From Ralstonia sp. 25mfcol4.1 (lineage in GTDB: Bacteria > Pseudomonadota > Gammaproteobacteria > Burkholderiales > Burkholderiaceae): a stretch of DNA of 64,000 nucleotides. Below are positions 25,046 to 30,471 of this stretch, piece after piece. The stretch lies in contig NZ_FNJO01000003.1 of assembly GCF_900104095.1 (NCBI RefSeq), positions 434,001-498,000 of the forward strand, written 5' to 3'. Made by a program: the position numbers and the translations under genes. Positions within the stretch are counted from its first letter, which is position 1, and every line of letters begins with the position of its first letter. Below the pieces are notes generated by a model that saw only the letters and a program-made list of their open reading frames with translations, was not told the DNA's origin and searched no databases.

Positions 25046-25867
25046 TCAGTGGCCGCTGGCGCGCATCTGCCCGATCAGCTCATGCACGGTGGCGGCGGTT
25101 TCCAGGGGCCGCTCCATCGGATAGAGATGCCCGCCTTCCAGGAAGCGCAGGCGGTCGCCCACCAGCTTGCGCGTGGCGCCCAGTCCCACCTGCCTGACCT
25201 CGCGTGATTTCGTGCCGGCAATGAAGCCCACCGGCACCGGCGCGCCATGGGCCACGCGCCGGCCCAGGCTGGTAGGCAGCGTGCGATAGATGCGGTATTC
25301 CACGTCGCGGTCGAAACGCAGGCGGCGTTCCGCGGCCCGGCCCGTCGGCTCGGTGCCATGCTCGGCGTAGTCGCGCAGCACGTCCGGGTCCCAGACCCGG
25401 AAATTGCGCTTGGCCTGGAAGTGGGTCCAGACCGATTCGGTATCGGGCCAGTGCGTGCGGCGGTTCTTGGTCACGGCCGCCGGGCCCGGCTTTTCGTCCA
25501 GACCCAGGACCTGCGACGCGCGCAGCAGCGACGCCCGCCAGCCGGCGATGATCGGCGAGTCGAGCATCACCACGCCGCGCACGCGCTGCGGTTCGCGCAG
25601 CGCGGCCATCAGCGACAGGAAACCGCCCAGCGAATGCCCGACCAGCCAGACCTTGCGGGAATCGGCACCGTCGCGACGGGCGCGTTCGATCTCACGTAGC
25701 AGTTCGTCCACCAGATTGGGCCATTCGCGCGTGACCGGGTACTTTGGATCGTGGCCGTAGCGCTCGACGGCGCGGATCTCGAAGGCATCTTCCAGTGCCC
25801 CGAACAGCTTGCGGTACGTGGATACGGGAAATCCGTTGGCGTGGGAGAACAGCAGGATGTCGCGCAT
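25046..25867 (-). CDS. Alpha/beta hydrolase downstream of the Anbu operon
   Basis: A 273-residue alpha/beta hydrolase. The oxyanion-hole segment is FSHANGFPVSTY, the nucleophile elbow is WLVGHSLGGFLS, and the catalytic His lies in LEGGHLYPMERP. It begins 99 bases after the Anbu gene on the same strand with no terminator between, so co-transcription is possible. Substrate unknown. The family also includes many unlinked house-keeping esterases. Confidence 0.87.
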   Translation of the reverse strand: MRDILLFSHANGFPVSTYRKLFGALEDAFEIRAVERYGHDPKYPVTREWPNLVDELLREIERARRDGADSRKVWLVGHSLGGFLSLMAALREPQRVRGVVMLDSPIIAGWRASLLRASQVLGLDEKPGPAAVTKNRRTHWPDTESVWTHFQAKRNFRVWDPDVLRDYAEHGTEPTGRAAERRLRFDRDVEYRIYRTLPTSLGRRVAHGAPVPVGFIAGTKSREVRQVGLGATRKLVGDRLRFLEGGHLYPMERPLETAATVHELIGQMRASGH

Positions 25868-25966: not shown

Positions 25967-26770
25967 CTACCGTTCCCGGCGTGCGCGCACGGGCTGGCCC
26001 CATCGGTCGGCCTCGTCGCGCGCCAGCGGAAACTCGGCCGGCTCGGCGGCATCCCACTCGGGATTGGCGATCTCGCCGAACACCTGACGCAGGCGCTGGC
26101 CCCAGGTGTCGCGGATCATGCGGAAGTACGCGTTCTTCTCGTCGATGTTGACAAAGCGCGTCACGCGCAGCGAATCGGCCTCGTACACCAGCAGGTCCAG
26201 CGGCAGGCCCACCGAGATATTCGACTTGAGCGTCGAATCCATCGAAATCAGCGCGCACTTGGCGGCCTCGCCCAGCGGCAGCGACGGCGACACCACTCGG
26301 TCGACGATCGGCTTGCCATACTTGGCCTCGCCAATCTGGAAGTAGCAGTTTTCGGGCGACGCCTCGACGAAATTGCCCGCCGCATAGATATGGAACAGCC
26401 GCGTGCGCTCGCCGCGGATCTGCCCGCCGAAGATCATGCTGACGTTGAAGTCGATGCCGGCCTCGCGCAGTGCGTGGGCGTCGCGCTTGTGCACGGCGCG
26501 CACGGCGTCGCCGACGATCGTGGCGGCCTCGAACATGTCGCGGGCCGTCCACAGCGAACGCTTTTCGTCGCGCGCCTCGGCCAGCAGCTGCCGCACCGAC
26601 TGGCTGATCGCCAGGTTGCCGGCCGTCATCAGCACCAGCACGCGGTCGCCCGGCTCTTCGAAGACGGTCATCTTGCGCGAGGTGGAAATGGCATCCACCC
26701 CGGCATTGGTTCGGGAATCGGACAGGAATACCAGACCGGCATCCAGCCGCATCGCTACGCAGTACGTCAT
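25967..26770 (-). CDS. anbu: Anbu, proteasome-like peptidase
   Basis: The bacterial 'ancestral beta-subunit' homologue of 20S proteasome and HslV proteases (267 residues). The chain begins MTYCVAMRLDAGLVFLSDSRT. Removal of Met1 exposes Thr2 as the N-terminal nucleophile. D18 (SDSRTNAG) and K33 (SRKMTVF) fit the proteasomal Thr1/Asp17/Lys33 triad. The GNLAISQSV and FNVSMIFGGQ segments are typical of Anbu. It ends the run ATP-grasp / alpha-E / transglutaminase / Anbu, the recurring neighbourhood of the family. Known Anbu proteins form open helical or ring assemblies with unclear substrates; no regulatory ATPase is encoded nearby. Confidence 0.93.
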   Translation of the reverse strand: MTYCVAMRLDAGLVFLSDSRTNAGVDAISTSRKMTVFEEPGDRVLVLMTAGNLAISQSVRQLLAEARDEKRSLWTARDMFEAATIVGDAVRAVHKRDAHALREAGIDFNVSMIFGGQIRGERTRLFHIYAAGNFVEASPENCYFQIGEAKYGKPIVDRVVSPSLPLGEAAKCALISMDSTLKSNISVGLPLDLLVYEADSLRVTRFVNIDEKNAYFRMIRDTWGQRLRQVFGEIANPEWDAAEPAEFPLARDEADRWGQPVRARRER

Positions 26771-26872
26771 GAACAGGTGTCTTGTTGGGGCGCCGTGTCA
26801 CTTGTGAGACGGCAAATTTGCATTCTAGCCGCTCGGCAAAACGCCACGCCGTTGAATGCCGGCGCGGGCCGG

Positions 26873-27685
26873 TCAGGCAGCGGGCGTGATGGCGATATCG
26901 ACGTCGAGCGTTTCGCCCGCGCCGCCTTCCAGAATGCCCCGGATTGGTGCGGCCGAGGCGTAGTCGCGCCCCACCGCGAGCCGCACGTGGCGGGCATCTG
27001 TCACACAGCGGTGCGTCACGTCGATACTGCACCAGAGGCCCCGGCCGGCATCGAGACAGACATCGGCCCAGGCATGGCTGGCCAGCGCCGTGGCGGCCGG
27101 ATCGTAGAAGTAGCCACTGACATAGCGCGCCGGAATGCCCAGCACACGGCACGCGGCCACCATCACCTGCGCCTGGTCCTGGCAGACGCCACTCCCCAGC
27201 TGGAAGGCCTGGGCCGCCGACGTTCCGACATCGGTGGTATTGGCCTGGTAGCGCACGCGATCGGCAATGCCGCCCGCCAGGGCCAGCAGTGCCGGCACAT
27301 CGTGACCCGCCGCCACATAGGGCGCGGCAAACGCCTGCAGGCCGTGCGGCGCCTGCGTAAGTGGCGTAGTCGAAACAAAGTATAGCGGCGACACCCGTGA
27401 CTCGCCCGAATCCGGCTGATCGACGAAAGCATGGTGTCCGCCCTGCACCTCCACCTCGCCGGTGGCGGTGATGGCGATCGTACGGGCCGGGCCGGCCATG
27501 GTGAAGTTGTGGACGATATTGCCGAAACCGTCGCGCGCCTCGCTCAGGTTGCCCGGCGCCGAAAGTTGCCAGCCCTGCACCGATTGCAGGGGCCCCGAGC
27601 GCGGGGCGAGGCGCAGTTCGTGCACGCTGCGACGCACCGGTTCGGTGTATTGATAGACGGTTTTGTGGTGAATCCTGTATTTCAC
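26873..27685 (-). CDS. Transglutaminase-like cysteine protease of the Anbu operon
   Basis: A 270-residue protein with an N-terminal bacterial transglutaminase-like beta domain (YRIHHKTVYQYTEPV...LRLAPR) followed by the papain-like core. The putative triad is C168 (GSGVCQDQAQ), H204 (ASHAWADV) and D222 (SIDVTH). I start at GTG 27685, where the family sequence begins. The frame is open to 27811 but that stretch is Cys/Pro/Gly-rich and overlaps the alpha-E gene. Enzymes of this fold can hydrolyse or transfer amide bonds, so either protease or amide-forming activity is possible. Confidence 0.9.
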   Translation of the reverse strand: MKYRIHHKTVYQYTEPVRRSVHELRLAPRSGPLQSVQGWQLSAPGNLSEARDGFGNIVHNFTMAGPARTIAITATGEVEVQGGHHAFVDQPDSGESRVSPLYFVSTTPLTQAPHGLQAFAAPYVAAGHDVPALLALAGGIADRVRYQANTTDVGTSAAQAFQLGSGVCQDQAQVMVAACRVLGIPARYVSGYFYDPAATALASHAWADVCLDAGRGLWCSIDVTHRCVTDARHVRLAVGRDYASAAPIRGILEGGAGETLDVDIAITPAA

Positions 27686-27767
27686 GATGCGTATCGCGCG
27701 CCCGGCACGGCACCCGCCGGTGCTTCCCCGGCCCGGCGCGTGACGCACCGGGCACATGCATGACGGT

Positions 27768-28721
27768 TCAGGCGGCCAGCAGCGGCACGAGGAAATCCCG
27801 GCTGATGCCATTGCCGAGATCGCCGATGCGCTCCAGGAAGCTGGTCAGGTAGGCGTGCAGGCCGACGGCGAAGATGTCGTCGATGCGCGCGTATTTGAGG
27901 TCGGCGTGGAGTTTACCAGCCTGGCGCTCGGTCTCCGACGATTGCTGGTTGGCCACCAGCGCCAGGATCGCCACCACTTCGTCCATGCTCGACACGAGCG
28001 AGCGCGGCATGTCCGGCCGCAGGATCAGCAGTTCGGCCACGCGCTGCGGCGTGATCACGGCCCGGTAGATCTTGCGGTAGACCTCGAAGCCCGACACCGA
28101 CCGCAGCACGGCCGCCCAGTGGTAGAAGTCGTTCTGCTCGCGGTTCGGATCGCTGTCGTCGCGGCCCGACGCCTGGAACTTGACGTCCAGGATCCGCGCC
28201 GTATTGTCGGCGCGCTCCAGGAAGGTGCCAAGCCGCATGAAGTGGAACGCATCGTCCTTGAGCATGGTGCCGAACTGCACACCGCGCGCCAGGTGCGAGC
28301 GGAACTTGACCCATTCGAAGAAGCGCGACGGGTCATCGCGCAGCTCGCCCTCGGTGATCATGCGCTGCACGTCCAGCCACGTGGTGTTGATGGTTTCCCA
28401 CACCTCCGTAGTCAGCGACCCACGCACCGCCCGCGCGTTCTCGCGCGCCGCGCGCAGGCAGCTCATGATCGACGACGGGTTGGTCATGTCGCGCACCATG
28501 AAGTCGATCACGTCGTCACGGTGCAGCAGGCCGTACTTGTGGTCGTAGGCCTGGGTCAGCTCGGAGATGTCGAGCATCGCCCACCAGCCCTGCTCGGCCA
28601 CTTCGGCCGACTGCGGCAGCAGCGAGGTCTGGTAGTTGACGTCGAGCATGCGCGCGGTGTTTTCCGCGCGCTCGGTGTAGCGGGCCATCCAGAACAGGTG
28701 GTCGGCGGTACGGCTCAGCAT
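27768..28721 (-). CDS. Alpha-E domain protein of the Anbu operon
   Basis: A 317-residue all-helical alpha-E protein. Diagnostic repeats of the form F.ARYTERAENTARMLDV (near the N-terminus) and LGTFLERADNTARILDVKF (middle) place paired Arg/Glu residues on the helices. FLERIGDLGNGI occurs near the C-terminus. Alpha-E proteins almost always accompany circularly permuted ATP-grasp and transglutaminase genes; they are thought to help form or modify a peptide bond, but no activity is proven that I know of. It follows the ATP-grasp gene by 33 bases. Confidence 0.92.
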   Translation of the reverse strand: MLSRTADHLFWMARYTERAENTARMLDVNYQTSLLPQSAEVAEQGWWAMLDISELTQAYDHKYGLLHRDDVIDFMVRDMTNPSSIMSCLRAARENARAVRGSLTTEVWETINTTWLDVQRMITEGELRDDPSRFFEWVKFRSHLARGVQFGTMLKDDAFHFMRLGTFLERADNTARILDVKFQASGRDDSDPNREQNDFYHWAAVLRSVSGFEVYRKIYRAVITPQRVAELLILRPDMPRSLVSSMDEVVAILALVANQQSSETERQAGKLHADLKYARIDDIFAVGLHAYLTSFLERIGDLGNGISRDFLVPLLAA

Positions 28722-28754
28722 GATGGGGTCTCCCGGCGATCAGTGTGTTCGGCT

Positions 28755-30230
28755 TCAGCGTTCCAGCACCCAGGTGTCCTTGGTGCCCCCGCCCTGCGAG
28801 GAATTCACCACCAGCGACCCCTCGCGCAGCGCCACGCGCGTCAGCCCGCCCGGCACCATGCGCACTTCCTTGCCCGACAGCACGAATGGCCGCAGGTCGA
28901 TATGGCGCGGCGCGATGCCCGATTCCACATAGGTCGGGCAGGTGGACAGCGCCAGCGTGGGCTGGGCGATGTACTGTTCGGGCCGCGCCTTGACCACCTC
29001 GCGGAACTGGTCGATCTCGGCCTTCGTCGCGGCCGGGCCCACCAGCATGCCGTATCCCCCGGCCCCGTGGGTTTCCTTCACGACCAGCTCGGCCATGTGG
29101 TCGAGCACGTATTGCAGGTCATCGGGCCGTCGGCACATGTAGGTGGGCACGTTCGACAGGATGGCCTCTTCGCCCAGGTAGAAGCGGATCATGTCCGGCA
29201 CATACGGATAGATCGACTTGTCGTCGGCCACGCCGGTGCCGATGGCATTCGAGATCGTCACGTTGCCGGCACGATAGACCGACAGCAGTCCCGCCGCGCC
29301 CAGCGCCGAATCTGGCCGGAATACGAGCGGATCGAGGAAGTCGTCGTCCACGCGGCGGTAGATCACGTCGATGCGCTGCGGCCCCTGCGTGGTGCGCATG
29401 TAGAGGTGATCGTCCTCGACGAACAGGTCGCTGCCCTCCACCAGTTCCACGCCCATCTGCTGGGCCAGGAACGCGTGCTCGAAATACGCGGAGTTGTACA
29501 TGCCCGGCGTGAGCACGACCACGGTAGGGTCGGCGATATTCTGCGGCGACACGCTGCGCAGCATGTCCAGCAGCAGGTCGGGATAGTGGGCCACGGGCGC
29601 CACCCGGTTGCGGGCGAACAGGTCGGGGAACAACCGCATCATCATCTTGCGGTTTTCCAGCATGTACGACACGCCCGACGGCACGCGCAGGTTGTCTTCC
29701 AGCACGTAGAACTCGCCCTGGCCCGCGCGCACCACATCGATGCCGGCTACGTGCGCGTAGATGTCGCGCGGCACGTCGATGCCGAGCATCTCGGGCCGGT
29801 ACTGGGCGTTGTTATAGATCTGGTCGGGCGGAATCACGCCGGCACGGATGATGTCCTGGCCGTGGTAGATATCGTGGATGAAGCGGTTCAGCGCCGCCAC
29901 CCGCTGGCGCAGGCCGCGCTCCAGCGTGGCCCATTCGCTGGCCGGGAACACGCGCGGGATCACGTCGAACGGAATGGTCCGCTCAGTGCCGCTGTTGGAC
30001 TCGTCCTTGTCGCCATAGACGGCGAAGGTAATGCCCACGCGCCGGAAGATCAGATCCGCCTCCGCGCGCTTGTTGTCCATCGTGGATACGGACTGCCGGC
30101 CGAGCCAGTCCGCAAAACTTCGGTAGTGAGTCCGGACCGCCCCTGGCGGCAATACCTGTCCGGCCTCGACGGCCGTCACCGTGCCGTCCTCTCGCCCTTC
30201 CAGCATCTCGTCGAAAAACCGCGCCGCCAT
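28755..30230 (-). CDS. Circularly permuted type 2 ATP-grasp protein of the Anbu operon
   Basis: A 491-residue circularly permuted ATP-grasp ligase. Landmarks are FDVIPRVFPASEWATLERGL, ALNRFIHDIYHGQ, the DNLRVPSGVSYMLENR loop, VVVLTPGMYNSAYFEHAFLA, VVKETHGAGGYGMLVGP (glycine-rich ATP loop) and HIDLRPFVLSG. ATP-grasp enzymes join a carboxylate to an amine or thiol through an acyl-phosphate. The first gene of the four-gene cluster, with GGAG before the ATG. The substrate pair cannot be inferred. Confidence 0.93.
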   Translation of the reverse strand: MAARFFDEMLEGREDGTVTAVEAGQVLPPGAVRTHYRSFADWLGRQSVSTMDNKRAEADLIFRRVGITFAVYGDKDESNSGTERTIPFDVIPRVFPASEWATLERGLRQRVAALNRFIHDIYHGQDIIRAGVIPPDQIYNNAQYRPEMLGIDVPRDIYAHVAGIDVVRAGQGEFYVLEDNLRVPSGVSYMLENRKMMMRLFPDLFARNRVAPVAHYPDLLLDMLRSVSPQNIADPTVVVLTPGMYNSAYFEHAFLAQQMGVELVEGSDLFVEDDHLYMRTTQGPQRIDVIYRRVDDDFLDPLVFRPDSALGAAGLLSVYRAGNVTISNAIGTGVADDKSIYPYVPDMIRFYLGEEAILSNVPTYMCRRPDDLQYVLDHMAELVVKETHGAGGYGMLVGPAATKAEIDQFREVVKARPEQYIAQPTLALSTCPTYVESGIAPRHIDLRPFVLSGKEVRMVPGGLTRVALREGSLVVNSSQGGGTKDTWVLER

Positions 30231-30384: not shown

Positions 30385-30471
30385 GGGGTTGCATGCACAA
30401 GACATGCGCCGGTACGCAAAACGGTTTAGCAAGATGCTTGCCAGCCACGCGTGGCTGGCCTTGGTGCAGGG

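Follow-up and report, generated by a model that had tools for sequence, protein, structure and literature searches.

What would a cell do with enzymes that make an amide bond when their genes stand beside that of a proteasome homologue able to cut one? The question is raised by positions 25,967 to 30,230 of a 64,000-nucleotide stretch of Ralstonia sp. 25mfcol4.1 (contig NZ_FNJO01000003.1; the whole stretch is called the window). Here, four minus-strand genes encode, in the order of transcription given by the open reading frame (ORF) coordinates, an ATP-grasp ligase, an alpha-E protein, a transglutaminase-fold protein and Anbu, a hydrolase of the proteasome fold. The gene set was reportedly first discussed by Iyer et al. 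in 2009. With its four families adjacent and in this order, the window carries a Cupriavidus copy of the already published Anbu operon (PMC5666114, PMC6376114), and the available text of both papers treats the Anbu substrate as a still open question. A first-pass annotation of the window had rightly presented the neighbourhood as known and its substrate as unsettled. It had also proposed bond-making beside bond-cutting, an idea that is supported by the present results and is in print as a hypothesis (PMC6376114). It did not mention a paralogous operon of the same genome, a sigma54-type site in front of ATP-grasp or the nitrogen regulation described in print.

Our answer, to which we give roughly even chances, is that the locus combines two modules, a ligase made under nitrogen starvation and an independently supplied Anbu hydrolase that acts on its product. 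In the first module, ATP-grasp and alpha-E would form one two-part amide (peptide) ligase, the transglutaminase-fold enzyme would process or transfer the ligase product, and the sigma54-type promoter before the ATP-grasp gene would switch the module on in nitrogen shortage. The second module would consist of the N-terminal-threonine hydrolase Anbu, expressed at a basal level of its own and cleaving the amide or peptide made or attached by the first module and freeing a nitrogen-bearing product. Induction by nitrogen limitation, separate promoters, inhibitor binding at Thr1 of Anbu and phosphate release by the ATP-grasp protein have been reported by others in relatives.

Presence and position of Anbu relative to the ligase genes

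Co-occurrence was analyzed in 276 genomes drawn evenly across the class, for which a completeness of at least 90% was asked. Anbu (profile A1) is found in 69 genomes, ATP-grasp (PF14403) in 85 and both in 66 (Fisher p 3.5e-42, a nominal value since the genomes are related). Alpha-E (PF04168) occurs in 84 genomes, which, compared by eye, are all those of the ATP-grasp set except one that has a 51-position ATP-grasp fragment, and an alpha-E match directly follows ATP-grasp in 29 of 29 class-wide loci (the best-scoring ones; L154 is partial). ATP-grasp without Anbu is seen in 19 genomes, one of them with a fragment. Anbu without ATP-grasp is seen in only three, two of which (G031, G163) have matches covering 123–124 of 260 positions, while the third (G254) has a full-length match.

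The relative position of both genes is far less constant than their joint presence. A total of 75 Anbu matches were placed (three further short pieces were left out, as were five short or partial ATP-grasp pieces of G278 and G081, two genomes that are counted through other matches). The nearest ATP-grasp lies upstream on the same strand in 8 cases, downstream in 1, convergent in 20 and divergent in 21; a further 5 matches have ATP-grasp on the contig beyond 12 kb and 20 have none on the contig, some of these reflecting draft contig breaks. Hence, 41 of the 50 Anbu matches with ATP-grasp within 12 kb have it on the opposite strand, the nearest ATP-grasp possibly being a paralogous fused copy in some genomes. 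Anbu tracks the presence of the ligase, not its position. At least here, this even sample of the class departs from the printed description of Anbu as occurring predominantly in a four-gene operon of conserved order (PMC6376114).

Of the close relatives (the best 80 of 159 confirmed loci), 69 show all four genes arranged as in the window, transglutaminase and Anbu being less than 400 bp apart. In C. numazuensis and C. laharis (L017, L072), a stretch of 3.4–4.1 kb with opposite-strand ORFs separates these two genes. In L019, the other three genes are absent within the 8-kb flank of Anbu; ATP-grasp, alpha-E and the start of a transglutaminase stand together at a second locus of that genome (L086), located on a different contig or at a distance of over 100 kb. 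By comparison with L020, Anbu in these three cases retained 132 bp (L017), 110 bp (L072) and 118 bp (L019) of its upstream DNA, with other genes preceding. In L046, an alpha-E gene cut by the locus edge lies 7 kb from Anbu. Similarly, the other three genes were not found in the Anbu flank of seven Comamonadaceae-like loci (L068, L074, L078–L082), which belong to Hydrogenophaga, Malikia, one Burkholderiales metagenome-assembled genome (MAG) and L068, a record titled as a Chitinophaga pinensis MAG, yet with a Malikia-like Anbu. ATP-grasp is present elsewhere in six of these seven genomes and none was seen in the seventh (L079, a MAG). Anbu is thus detachable from the other three genes. Directly before Anbu in Cupriavidus, the alignment contains no conserved block and a scan gave no sigma70-like match.

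These patterns bear on a simpler explanation, in which Anbu, as a self-compartmentalising protease, serves general protein turnover during nitrogen starvation with no special tie to the ligase product, and its neighbours do no more than supply it or draw on what it releases. The active site is proteasome-like, epoxomicin and MG132 bind Anbu at Thr1, and protein degradation is the preference of the authors of PMC5666114; moreover, Anbu is induced by nitrogen limitation in some studies (PMC8050072, PMC3325844). A general protease should, however, need no particular ligase, yet ATP-grasp is kept in 66 of the 69 Anbu genomes; in addition, standard peptides were left uncleaved and the available text of PMC5666114 and PMC6376114 knows no unfoldase partner. 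We consider this explanation unlikely. Anbu nearly always accompanies the ligase, yet it can be placed independently of it and in P. putida also has a separate promoter; such a pattern would suit an enzyme that hydrolyses the ligase product or something carrying it.

The sigma54-type site and proposed nitrogen control

The features of the locus are as follows, in the order of transcription:

30428..30443, minus strand: sigma54-type -24/-12 site TGGCAAGCATCTTGCT (10 of 11 consensus positions)
28755..30230, minus strand: circularly permuted ATP-grasp ligase, 491 amino acids, first gene (Pfam and 3n6x match)
27768..28721, minus strand: alpha-E protein, 317 amino acids, ATP-grasp partner (PF04168)
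26873..27685, minus strand: transglutaminase-fold protein, 270 amino acids with the probable GTG start (PF08379, PF01841)
26771..26872, minus strand: gap of 102 bp (by coordinates) between transglutaminase and Anbu, a candidate place for a separate Anbu promoter
26765..26767, minus strand: codon of Anbu Thr2 (mature Thr1), the expected nucleophile once Met is removed (from the sequence; MTY start in 80 of 80 loci)
25967..26770, minus strand: Anbu, N-terminal-threonine hydrolase of the proteasome fold, 267 amino acids (sequence matches in the Protein Data Bank, PDB)
25046..25867, minus strand: alpha/beta hydrolase beside Anbu (PF12697, E 3.4e-15)

The site TGGCAAGCATCTTGCT runs from 30443 to 30428, 197 bp before the ATP-grasp ATG and 28 bp after a gntK-like ORF. 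It has GG and GC elements 12 bp apart, fits the TGGCACN5TTGCW context at 10 of 11 positions and is the sole match of this quality in the 64 kb, both strands included; in simulated sequence, about one such site is expected by chance per 64-kb strand and 0.0035 in the 213 bp before the gene. The site is conserved before ATP-grasp in 33 of 33 Cupriavidus-group loci, with a mean column identity of 0.84–1.00 across the site (three bins of five columns) against 0.38–0.62 in bins upstream and 0.42–0.64 downstream. The 34th locus of the group is L019, which has no ATP-grasp; the ATP-grasp of its genome (L086) carries the site too. All six Achromobacter loci have a site matching 10–11 of 11 positions, with an NtrC-like palindrome (10–12 of 12) 110–157 bp before it. 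In the six Comamonadaceae-like ATP-grasp loci (L087–L092), TGGCCCG-type sites (10/11) lie 40–50 bp before a shared ATG (ATP-grasp could start further upstream in frame in L089 and L091), although Anbu is elsewhere in those genomes; three of them add a 10/12 NtrC-like palindrome. Genome-wide, the pattern TGGCANNNNNNTTGCW occurs 39 times against 4 times for a reversed control, and one of these sites precedes a pilin-like ORF, pilin being a sigma54 target. No sigma70-like match was found before the ATP-grasp gene in the stretch scanned. We infer that this strain uses sigma54 here. Searches of open-licence papers turned up no earlier description of such a site in front of the Cupriavidus operon, and we claim no priority.

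Published expression data come from P. putida, in which PP_2688 encodes ATP-grasp and PP_2685 Anbu. In a reporter assay, the PP_2688 promoter region showed a 3.7-fold response to nitrogen limitation, while that of PP_2685 was constitutive (PMC8050072). In the wild type under nitrogen limitation, PP_2686–2688 were up 11–15 fold and PP_2685 1.12-fold, with a value of 4.81 for PP_2685 in relA/spoT (PMC7801951). Two comparisons in another nitrogen-limitation study gave 11.1 and 4.0 for PP2685, 6.6 and 4.6 for PP2686, and 7.1 and 2.6 for PP2687 (PMC3325844). The first-pass annotation had called the set an operon and expected co-expression. Adjacency of the four genes in the window speaks for that label; the splits in L017 and L072, the separate Anbu of the seven Comamonadaceae-like loci, the mostly opposite strands class-wide and the constitutive region before P. 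putida Anbu speak against it. As to co-expression, the printed record is mixed, the 1.12-fold change of Anbu standing against the increases in PMC3325844 and PMC8050072.

Several results weigh against the two-module reading. The full-length Anbu of G254 (L201:6035-6775, minus strand) occurs in a genome of 170 contigs that is estimated to be 100% complete and shows no ATP-grasp match. Sites of 10/11 or better are lacking from 21 of the 71 Burkholderiales loci and from 26 of the 29 class-wide ones (L159, L172 and L182 do have one, two of them with a 10/12 NtrC-like palindrome). In Cupriavidus, no NtrC-like palindrome keeps a constant place before the site. Of the 39 genome-wide sites, 30 were examined and none of these has such a palindrome of at least 10/12 within 250 bp, and NtrC palindromes with at most one mismatch are weakly enriched (26 versus 15 per strand in the control). 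Eleven site matches of the Ralstonia group were not counted, as they lie inside the coding sequence of the ORF before ATP-grasp, which we take to be comEC, 108 codons before its stop; a single codon is used in all for 27 of 65 invariant residues of this region, a figure that does not separate DNA from protein constraint. In P. putida, the glnK promoter likewise looked constitutive, to the surprise of the authors, so that the reading of the Anbu promoter as constitutive is weaker because the same assay also missed glnK; on nitrate, mRNA of PP_2685 rose together with that of PP_2688 (log2 4.44 and 3.99; PMC8050072). In an rpoN mutant, PP_2686–2688 were still induced 14–20 fold, as were urt genes (PMC7801951). 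Finally, Y. bercovieri Anbu had no peptidase activity on standard substrates and formed no specific complex with other operon products, according to the available text of PMC6376114.

The rpoN result and the lack of a constant NtrC site in Cupriavidus would also suit an alternative in which the element is some other conserved sequence, not a promoter, and transcription of the operon depends on a different sigma factor. So would the spacer CATC, which is also conserved in Cupriavidus and is not required by sigma54, and the near-identical 16-mer inside Ralstonia-group comEC. Different spacers in the Achromobacter and Comamonadaceae-like sites, the genome-wide excess over the control, the low chance expectation before the gene and the missing sigma70-like match argue the other way, and we judge this alternative quite improbable. 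The 16-mer itself, MADILLVPHHGS, lies in the 3' part of the comEC-like ORF in L035–L045. The sigma54-type element of Cupriavidus might derive from it. Given the P. putida rpoN result and the 21 Burkholderiales loci that lack the site, sigma54 control cannot be generalised beyond the lineages with it.

Proteins of the operon and the Anbu pocket

The first-pass annotation named all four proteins correctly, as Pfam and PDB sequence matches bear out. ATP-grasp matches PF14403 (E 6.4e-170) and PF04174 (E 3.8e-157), and its residues 30–490 match the solved structure 3n6x (E 4.7e-217). The alpha-E protein matches PF04168 (E 5.6e-101); against solved structures, phmmer gave no match for it and a profile search gave only a chance-level coiled coil (E 0.79). 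The transglutaminase matches PF08379 (E 3.1e-23) and PF01841 (E 2.3e-21), and partially the solved structure 3isr (E 5.6e-11). The CP_ATPgrasp, Alpha-E and bacterial transglutaminase families all score above the curated Pfam cut-off. Across 71 loci, the C, H and D of the transglutaminase motifs SGVCQD, SHAWAD and SIDVTH show at least 97% conservation; we take them to be the Cys-His-Asp triad. For the start of this protein, we prefer GTG 27685 to ATG 27811, since residue 45 of the long ORF, with which the first Pfam domain opens, comes two codons past that GTG; in an alignment whose query was trimmed at GTG 27685, the start of the relatives sits right behind the alpha-E stop. Judging from the sequence, the protein probably begins at GTG 27685.

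The transglutaminase is also relevant for a protein-tagging hypothesis that is already in print (quoted in PMC6376114). In this scheme, ATP-grasp and alpha-E would make a peptide tag, the transglutaminase-fold enzyme would attach it and Anbu would remove the tag or degrade tagged proteins. Two folds able to form or transfer amides do stand beside a proteasome homologue, and the Rlo system of P. aeruginosa puts a protease, an ATP-grasp protein and an inactive transglutaminase-domain protein in one pathway (PMC12239564). Nonetheless, no report of a tag or conjugate was found in the published text at hand, and among the four proteins the transglutaminase shows the lowest conservation, with 36–45% identity against 71–76% for ATP-grasp (27 loci: 21 other Burkholderiales and six Achromobacter). 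Tagging therefore strikes us as somewhat unlikely.

For Anbu, phmmer gives five distinct PDB sequences, whose names are Anbu, Designed Anbu Protein or Peptidase, with E-values from 8.4e-93 to 1.6e-63; these matches run from residue 1–2 to 235–240, near the full length of the protein. Against PF00227, the protein reaches only 20.1 bits, below the cut-off of 22.4; a Pfam-based family search of the genome therefore misses Anbu and returns HslV-like and BPH-like proteins. The exposed threonine and the catalytic Thr, Asp and Lys of the first-pass annotation hold throughout: the Met-Thr start, Asp18 and Lys33 (mature Thr1, Asp17 and Lys32) are invariant in 80 of 80 related loci, all of which open with MTY. 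Thr directly follows the initiator Met, so there is no propeptide. The window genome is Cupriavidus-like, its closest loci being Cupriavidus, and its Anbu is 100% identical to the copy of Cupriavidus sp. U2. The authors of PMC6376114 earlier expressed the Anbu of Ralstonia eutropha.

The S1 pocket of P. aeruginosa Anbu consists of T20, F30, T48, L52 and S55 (PMC5666114), four of which are kept in the window; residue 30 is Ser. With locus groups assigned by hand from record titles, 30 of the 33 loci titled Cupriavidus have Ala at residue 30 and three have Ser; Ala also occurs in L064 and in 3 of 18 mixed Oxalobacteraceae/Burkholderiales loci, and the other 43 of the 80 have Phe. As the pocket differs at residue 30, we assign the protein to Anbu only and do not claim the Anbu-1 subtype. 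One possibility, speculative and in our opinion doubtful as a whole, joins the pocket to the pathway. The "Anbu operon" would then be a nitrogen-scavenging ligase pathway in which ATP-grasp and alpha-E condense an amine- or amino-acid-bearing compound to an amide that is processed and then hydrolysed by Anbu. Anbu would be a dedicated amidohydrolase, as in ligate-process-hydrolyse nitrogen catabolism, and not a bulk protease, and the change from Phe30 to Ala/Ser would have adapted the Cupriavidus S1 pocket to a bulkier product.

The gaps between the genes measure 33 bp (ATP-grasp to alpha-E), 82 bp (alpha-E to transglutaminase) and 102 bp (transglutaminase to Anbu) by coordinates, and the alpha/beta hydrolase starts 99 bp after Anbu. 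Such a hydrolase follows Anbu within 800 bp in 27 of 34 Cupriavidus-group, 11 of 11 Ralstonia-group, 3 of 7 Comamonadaceae-like and 0 of 28 other loci and is possibly a fifth gene in this lineage. Five of the seven Comamonadaceae-like loci were inspected at this point: in L074, L078, L080 and L082, a mutS-like ORF, presumably MutS, ends 4 bp inside Anbu, and L068 shows another ORF there. The alpha/beta hydrolase still adjoins Anbu in L074, L080 and L082.

Paralogous and published systems

A second operon of the same genome (contig C17, L107) encodes a DUF2126 protein with transglutaminase domains, an ATP-grasp/alpha-E fusion of 893 amino acids and a transglutaminase. It shares the ATP-grasp, alpha-E and transglutaminase domains with the Anbu operon and differs in the fusion, the extra DUF2126 amidoligase domain and the missing Anbu, for which a profile search gave no match at this operon. 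ATP-grasp and alpha-E are naturally fused here, which supports the view that they work as one enzyme. In three of four loci, GGTACAAGTCTTGCT, a 9/11 sigma54-type site, lies 51–61 bp upstream of the paralogous operon, a finding weakened by eight 9/11 matches within a 14-kb stretch; the fourth, more distant locus has no sigma54-type match of 8 or more. A related DUF404/407-DUF403-transglutaminase cluster of B. cenocepacia, which includes a large transglutaminase protein, is listed as a common sigma54/NtrC target, and its genes I35_5080-5083 are down 6.0–9.4 fold in an ntrC mutant; the word proteasome is absent from the available text (PMC5491218). Directly downstream of the paralogous operon (L107:1105-3783, minus strand), YadA-type trimeric autotransporter adhesin domains (PF05662, PF05658) are found.

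The genome also has HslV on another contig, with an adjacent HslU-like ORF that we take to be HslU, and a further PF00227 protein with an MTTCVVV start (L002:1414-2046, minus strand; G000:C29:276597-277139). We take the latter to be BPH and its neighbour ORF to be pyruvate-dehydrogenase-E2-like. It follows that HslV-like, BPH-like and Anbu proteins coexist. HslV and BPH belong to the proteasome family (PF00227) like Anbu; unlike Anbu, they are separate genes elsewhere, HslV with its HslU-like neighbour.

A conserved 16-bp site linking the ligase half to a sigma54-type promoter, together with an Anbu that tracks the presence of the ligase but not its position, offers concrete conditions and genetic backgrounds for a substrate search; both this site and the independent placement of Anbu usefully extend what is known of the system. 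The Anbu operons of Pseudomonas, Yersinia and Hyphomicrobium have the same four families, order and Thr1/Asp17/Lys32(33) (PMC5666114, PMC6376114), and Anbu has been discussed as a relic of proteasome origin (PMC5666114). The window differs from them in Ser (Ala or Ser in Cupriavidus) in place of the Phe30 of P. aeruginosa, in the conserved sigma54-type site before ATP-grasp and in the alpha/beta hydrolase beside Anbu. The Rlo and Rim systems (RloABC, RimB/RimK) likewise combine an ATP-grasp protein with a peptidase, to which Rlo adds a transglutaminase-domain protein, and genetics places the ligase and protease of Rlo in one pathway. They differ in having a RimK-like ATP-grasp, an aspartic peptidase instead of Anbu and an inactive membrane-bound transglutaminase domain (PMC12239564).

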